A DNA stretch of 64,000 nt from Chthoniobacterales bacterium (GTDB lineage: Bacteria; Verrucomicrobiota; Verrucomicrobiia; Chthoniobacterales; Terrimicrobiaceae): NCBI GenBank assembly GCA_014879575.1, contig JACSRU010000115.1, positions 62,001 through 126,000 on the forward strand. Direction: 5' to 3'. Below the pieces are notes generated by a model that saw only the letters and a list, made by a program, of their open reading frames with translations, did not search any database and had not been told where the DNA came from. The position numbers and the translations under genes are program-made. Of the stretch, positions 54,281 through 54,716 are shown one piece after another (position 1 is the stretch's first letter; every line of letters starts with the position of its first letter).

Positions 54281-54334
54281 AGGAATGTGGTGGTGGAGGG
54301 GAAAAGTCCGTCTTCCTTAACTCCCGGATTCCTA

Positions 54335-54606
54335 GTGTGCTGTCATCCAAATAGCTTGATGTTTGCCGAAGAGAAATTTGCCGATTTTCAAGGCGCGAGC
54401 GAAGCACCTGTGTGGAGCCACACTGGTCGAGCGAGCAACGCGGAAAATCGGCAAATTCCTCACGGCCCGAAGGGTTAGCTGGAAAATGGCCCGGCACCCG
54501 CGTTGCTCCTCAGTCACGTATCGCAACGGATATGCTCCTTCGTCGCGCCTTGGCGGCGGGCCATTTTGCAGCCAACAAACATCAAGCTATTTGGATGACA
54601 GCACAC
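54335..54606. mobile_element. 272-bp MITE-like/structured element: perfect 31-bp terminal inverted repeats enclosing two hairpins
   Basis: 54335-54365 GTGTGCTGTCATCCAAATAGCTTGATGTTTG is the exact reverse complement of 54576-54606. Inner arms 54371-54389/54443-54461 (18 of 19 pairs) and 54478-54493/54557-54572 (15 of 16 pairs). Confidence 0.85.
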
Positions 54607-54716
54607 CAGTGTTCCTTCTGAAAACCGCTGCAACGGATCGTGCGAAGCCCGAACAGTCAGGCTTTCAAAACTGAAAACCGAACACTGAACACTGAACCCT
54701 GAAAACTCCTCCTCCC

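Follow-up and report, generated by a model that had tools for sequence, protein, structure and literature searches.

A short element with perfect inverted ends in a Chthoniobacterales genome probably belongs to a MITE-like superfamily that shares a tandem G·A hairpin fold

The window analysed here, a stretch of 64,000 nucleotides from a Chthoniobacterales bacterium, carries a 272 bp element downstream of two toxin-antitoxin genes, one for a Phd/YefM antitoxin and the other for a ParE toxin. The ends of the element, a left TIR at 54335-54365 (plus strand) and a right TIR at 54576-54606 (minus strand), are exact reverse complements over 31 nt. The interior consists of two hairpins, hairpin B at 54369-54462 (plus strand) and hairpin A at 54479-54572 (folded strand minus), separated by a 16-nt linker at 54463-54478 (CGGCCCGAAGGGTTAG) with a small CCC/GGG hairpin. 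The fold of 54320-54625 has an energy of -152.1 kcal/mol, compared with -96.5 ± 5.8 kcal/mol for shuffled sequences (z = -9.55; 0 of 100 shuffles as good). Open reading frames overlapping the element encode 63-111 amino acids, mostly cross its boundary and look spurious. The preliminary description of this DNA, which proposed perfect 31-bp TIRs around two long hairpins, a CCC-GAA-GGG turn between them and no plausible ORF, is thus accurate on the layout, with the turn lying in the linker. Directly after the element (54627-54668 and 54680-54709), the window contains a different dispersed repeat, GCTGCAACGGATCGTGCGAAGCCCGAACAGTCAGGCTTTCAA, and then a ACTGAACACTGAA-type repeat. The former has about 15 matches in a relative (G004), where it is sometimes in tandem (contig C13), and a few in the window's own genome; the latter is also present in several relatives.

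The hairpins are inverted homologues of one another, a relation absent from the preliminary description, as a single covariance model (R1, below) matches both in opposite orientations. Hairpin A is the canonical one (87.6 bits, E = 3e-21), and hairpin B is a diverged copy of the model hairpin (38.5 bits, E = 1e-7). Each has a 54-nt core of the form AAGG..GCGG. The core of hairpin A, AAGGCGCGACGAAGGAGCATATCC..GATACGTGACTGAGGAGCAACGCGG, spans 54498-54551 on the minus strand and has three tandem G·A motifs, as seen in alignments A1 and A2 and their pair tables. That of hairpin B, GCGAGCGAAG..CGAGCGAGCAACG, spans 54390-54443 on the plus strand, where tandem G·A motifs are apparent from direct reading of the sequence and from alignment A2.

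Searches with the full-length element found it only once in its own genome. However, 53 bp of the second hairpin recur on another contig of that genome with 92% identity and match a genome of the same genus (G002) in 12 places, and the copies in G002 have arms and ends quite unlike those of the window element. Full-length BLAST would therefore understate the family, whose members with other arms are present in both genomes. A strict core pattern, scanned over 388 genomes of the same phylum, matched only the window's own genome because it is too sequence-specific. A gapped pattern based on both of the conserved stretches of purines, scanned over one genome per species, returned 53 loci, mostly in Verrucomicrobiota MAGs, with others in MAGs of Acidobacteriota, Planctomycetota and Elusimicrobiota; a match in Nitrosomonas (L043) lacks arms and was dropped as a chance hit. 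With the covariance model, and few candidates scored in each genome, at least 30 of the 388 same-phylum genomes, and at least 17 of 199 genera, were found to be carriers, with 10 places in one genome (G242) and 7 in that of the window. The copies are dispersed and intergenic. The preliminary description could name no family for the element. It is not an orphan, as it has relatives in these genomes, although no Rfam 15 covariance model reached its gathering score over either hairpin and our literature search found no paper describing the core or these elements, and no matching repeat family. A search of viral contigs and plasmids for the core gave no match.

The relatives share a common plan: a TIR, an arm, the conserved core and the matching arm, followed either by the second TIR or by a linker and a second hairpin. 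This gives units of two main sizes, those of about 272 bp having two hairpins in inverted order and those of about 162 bp having one, both bounded by TIRs and lacking an ORF. Where the TIRs are clear, most copies have 64-67 bp between the TIR end and the start of the core, and the window element, with about 65 bp, has the same spacing as relatives to which it is unrelated in sequence. The element end falls at about +57 or about +168 bp past the core, independent of arm sequence. Between relatives, TIRs and arms are almost wholly different yet still complementary. The inverted pairs are arranged head to head, so each strand carries one G·A hairpin, symmetric like the ends of a transposon, and a 15-16 nt linker with CCC..GGG is present in nearly all of the 23 pairs listed. 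Tandem hairpin copies are found in other genomes (L206, L218, L223).

The conservation of the hairpin was examined in two alignments: A1, with 28 non-redundant hairpins, and A2, with 109 R1 matches. In A1, compensatory changes are seen at almost every arm pair. Of the cells in the arms, 81.5% are paired, compared with 57.8% in shuffled and at most 44% in slid controls, and the arm covariation score is 0.558 versus 0.165. The core, in A2, is a continuous helix in which three tandem G·A/A·G motifs are separated by covarying Watson-Crick pairs. The tandem G·A, A·G pairs at positions 29-30/65-66, 32-33/62-63 and 36-37/58-59 are present in 82-94% of rows (104 rows), and the pattern holds when rows are grouped into 25 clusters with at most 60% arm identity (76-96% G·A). 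Between the motifs, pair 31/64 is CG in 62 rows, GC in 19, AT in 7 and TA in 5. The inner Watson-Crick pairs mostly lay outside the model used for making the alignment; they are 90.2% paired with 214 double changes, and slid controls reach at most 51.5%. Because of the relatedness of the rows and the use of a sequence pattern to collect the first set, conservation of the core at the level of letters is somewhat overstated; the pairing itself is not, since it holds in covariance-model matches with changed letters. The fold comprises covarying arms and, inside them, a helix with three tandem G·A/A·G pairs. Since the sequence is rewritten from genome to genome while the two-hairpin shape is kept, the fold rather than the sequence appears to be what selection preserves. 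The element is therefore not the single-copy sequence, devoid of homologues and covariation, that would have undone the preliminary description. In the genomes of one family (f22; L208, L209, L220, L221) the core is a near-regular helix of tetranucleotide period, with two Watson-Crick pairs alternating with two G·A pairs (GCGA GCGA GGGA type).

The hairpins fold on one strand. Wobble and mismatch pairs in the arms are strongly asymmetric when read on the purine strand (94 G·T versus 23 A·C; 75 G·A versus 11 C·T), and the wobble bias persists when counted by cluster (13 versus 3, p = 0.02), which indicates that a single strand folds and that it is the purine-rich one. The wobble asymmetry is equally expected for RNA. 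DNA containing sheared G·A pairs of the GCGAAGC type is exceptionally stable, and mini-hairpins of this sort appear in the literature, which makes a DNA fold plausible.

The preliminary description placed the element next to a toxin-antitoxin operon, which is indeed there. Homologues of the Phd/ParE genes in three relatives (76-86% DNA identity) end about 50 bp before the position of the element and are followed by unrelated sequence. The operon is therefore found elsewhere without the element, and the association looks incidental; as the homology stops short of the insertion point, these relatives do not provide an empty site for the window copy. Among about 90 contexts, whose neighbours were read unsystematically, no general link to a neighbouring gene was seen. 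By hand sums for the one-hairpin elements, the upstream gene is co-directional with the folded strand in 40 cases and with the other strand in 41.

These data bear on the possibility of a mobile RNA, in which the hairpins act after read-through transcription as an mRNA 3' stabiliser, a terminator or a protein-binding sponge, and the MITE spreads because its RNA is harmless or useful. The excess of G·U over A·C wobbles is in keeping with it, as is the minimum-energy fold of the minus strand when computed as RNA, which reproduces the paired and unpaired pattern of the core. The intergenic settings, 27 convergent versus 12 divergent, also show that divergent (promoter) regions are avoided. However, one-hairpin elements have no sense or antisense preference (14 in ++ and 16 in -- settings), there is no relation to Rfam, and because the paired hairpins fold on opposite strands, a single transcript would carry only one proper G·A hairpin. 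We regard an RNA role as rather unlikely. Of the two identities offered in the preliminary description, a MITE-like element or a structured ncRNA family, the structured family is supported by very strong covariation, and an ncRNA nature is supported neither by Rfam nor by any sense-strand preference.

The evidence for mobility comes from the boundaries of the copies. Recent copies have the same 3-bp TNA triplet on either side; by hand tally, 26 of 30 copies are flanked by identical triplets of this type, in which all four bases occur at N. All 9 copies in G002 have identical flanks (TAA, TTA, TTT), and duplicated triplets are likewise seen in G242 (TTA, TGA, TAA), in the window's own genome (TCA, TCA, TGA, TGA, TAA) and in other relatives (TGA, TCA, TTA), with flanks also agreeing at L041, L047, L048, L060, L073 and L075. 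The TNA target often overlaps a stop codon. A second class, which includes the type found in the window, is flanked by TA on both sides (L055, L063, L064, L066, L070, L080, L081, L095, L190-L192, L201, L215). At the window copy, the family boundary (TA followed by GTGTGCTG) places TA at 54333-54334 on the left and CA at 54607-54608 on the right; judged by comparison with the boundaries of same-type relatives, which have TA/TA, this is a TA duplication whose right copy has decayed. The TTCCT repeat suggested earlier as a target duplication (54329-54333 and 54612-54616) does not abut the TIRs and is not supported. Several derivatives show the TIRs to be the mobile boundary: a 46-bp TIR-only unit in the window's own genome (AGAACCTGGGAAAAAAGTGGGGGCTGGCACTTTTTTCGCAGATTCT, L240 1501-1546, contig C154:6713-6758) in which the core is deleted and the ends and TGA/TGA duplication are intact, a 126-bp copy with TGA/TGA flanks (L232), and solo TIR ends beside housekeeping genes in the window's own genome. 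Near position 1501 of two G002 loci (L130, L131) is a different unit common to both, CTAGCAGAAATAACTTGATACAAATTAGGGTTCTTTG. It matches the G002 TIR in its outer part and is unrelated in its interior, and is possibly another element using the same transposase.

Both the TNA and the TA duplications fit DDE transposases of the IS5 kind. The 3-bp TNA or 2-bp TA duplications thus argue for a MITE-like element that transposases of the DDE type mobilise in trans. Members of the IS1031 type in the IS5 family have TNA duplications and GAGCCTG-like TIRs. TNA duplications are present here, some family members have GAGCCTGTCTGAAAA (L265-L267, L272), and the TA class differs. No autonomous insertion sequence with matching TIRs was found in a complete genome (G344), in G002 or beside the TIR sites of the window's own genome. 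Few DDE_Tnp_1 genes are present in six carrier genomes searched (none in G414), and R1 found none flanked by a hairpin at the DDE_Tnp_1 loci of six genomes, a search that covered one family of DDE proteins. The elements thus display most hallmarks of MITEs, namely TIRs, short length, a noncoding interior, fixed-length duplications across the family and dispersed copies, and lack a detected autonomous partner. As the MAGs may lack this partner, we describe membership as MITE-like, and it is this half of the earlier proposal that the TIRs, TNA/TA duplications, dispersed copies and differing interiors bear out.

We also considered whether the hairpins are large REPs of a REPIN/RAYT-type system, mobilised by a Y1 HUH transposase through its recognition of folded single-stranded DNA. 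Y1_Tnp (RAYT-like) proteins are encoded in 9 of 9 carrier genomes searched (G000, G002, G412-G418; 4-23 matches each), the paired inverted hairpins are REPIN-like, the folded strand is strand-specific, and TIR-flanked tyrosine transposases (TIRYT) have been described for Acidobacteria and others (PMC3733652, PMC6006769). However, at 19 of the 20 Y1 loci R1 has no match. The lone near match, at L095, is a two-hairpin element (about 2260-2530) with TIR GAACCCATCTCATAA and TA on both sides, inserted between two genes whose ORFs read as brnT and brnA; it inserted independently, into a toxin-antitoxin operon next to the Y1 locus, so none of the 20 loci is hairpin-flanked and linkage to RAYT was rejected. 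In addition, Y1 transposition makes no target duplication, in contrast to the clear TNA duplications here, and the hairpins are 94 nt rather than 20-40 nt and lack a GTAG tag, which makes this origin quite improbable.

It is equally improbable that the palindromes have no function, being symmetrised by template-switch correction in replication around a core that is a relic of common ancestry: the arms change in sequence and are nonetheless near perfect, and the correction of quasipalindromes can maintain complementarity between arms in the absence of selection, but such correction should erase the G·A mismatches, which are instead the best conserved feature and so disfavour a purely mutational origin, and it accounts neither for the compensatory change of Watson-Crick pairs between the G·A motifs nor for a geometry fixed between elements with no common arm sequence.

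We therefore consider it fairly probable that the window element belongs to a large superfamily of non-autonomous, MITE-like elements that are moved in trans by DDE transposases, exchange their TIRs and carry a selected fold acting at the DNA level. Of the parts of this reading, mobility and the fold are well supported, and for the G·A hairpins we favour a role at the level of DNA. In such a scheme, a DDE-type transposase supplied in trans, likely IS5-family-like given the TNA/TA duplications, would recognise the TIRs; as the transposase would differ between hosts, TIRs could be replaced while the hairpin body is kept. The G·A hairpin may fold when its strand is single, during replication or in a cruciform, and could then hold the two ends together and/or allow the long palindrome to be tolerated or recognised. 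With hairpins A and B in inverted order, each element end would have its own folded strand, as in symmetric transposon ends. We know of no DDE mechanism that explains a folded body in a DDE transposon. More tentatively, these may be mobile elements defined by their fold, with the tandem G·A body recognised as folded single-stranded nucleic acid by a widely distributed factor and the TIRs repeatedly exchanged, so that different transposases would move the elements in different hosts. If the G·A hairpin is indeed recognised as a fold, this would be folded-strand recognition apart from that of IS200/IS605-REP and of attC sites in integrons. It would also account for the association of a single parasite body with transposase ends that are unrelated. 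Sequence is the usual means of finding bacterial repeat families, and this one, with a precise architecture revealed by covariation, is nearly invisible to BLAST between genomes; the covariance model is ready for annotating intergenic DNA in Verrucomicrobiota and their neighbours.

The element works like a MITE and matches no family in Rfam or in the literature we searched, and it shares features with several known systems. Integron attC sites are recognised through a one-strand fold in which the arms vary in sequence and unpaired or non-canonical features are conserved, a description that would suit the present elements too. In attC, however, the ends are conserved and the centre variable, the reverse of the present elements, which also have target duplications and no integrase. 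With the IS5 family, in which TNA (IS1031 group) or TA duplications occur, they share TNA duplication at CTNAG-like sites and, in some members, TIRs such as GAGCCTGTCTGAAAA and GAACCTGT..AAAA; unlike IS5 elements, they have no transposase, and we know of no IS5-family insertion sequence with internal conserved hairpins. REPINs, the REPs of RAYTs and the TIRs of TIRYTs (PMC3733652, PMC6006769) are similar in their paired inverted hairpins, strand-specific fold, intergenic location, non-autonomy and Y1-rich genomes. The present hairpins differ from these in being much longer, lacking the GTAG tag, having target duplications and not adjoining Y1 genes. There is also a likeness to bacterial MITEs such as QMITE2 of Coxiella (reviewed in PMC10969869), which are also short, have TIRs, target duplications, a stable predicted structure and no ORF, and are presumed to be mobilised in trans. 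Known bacterial MITEs are, however, sequence families; here the TIRs and arms are unrelated between genomes, and it is only the fold and its tandem G·A core that are kept, across more than one phylum.
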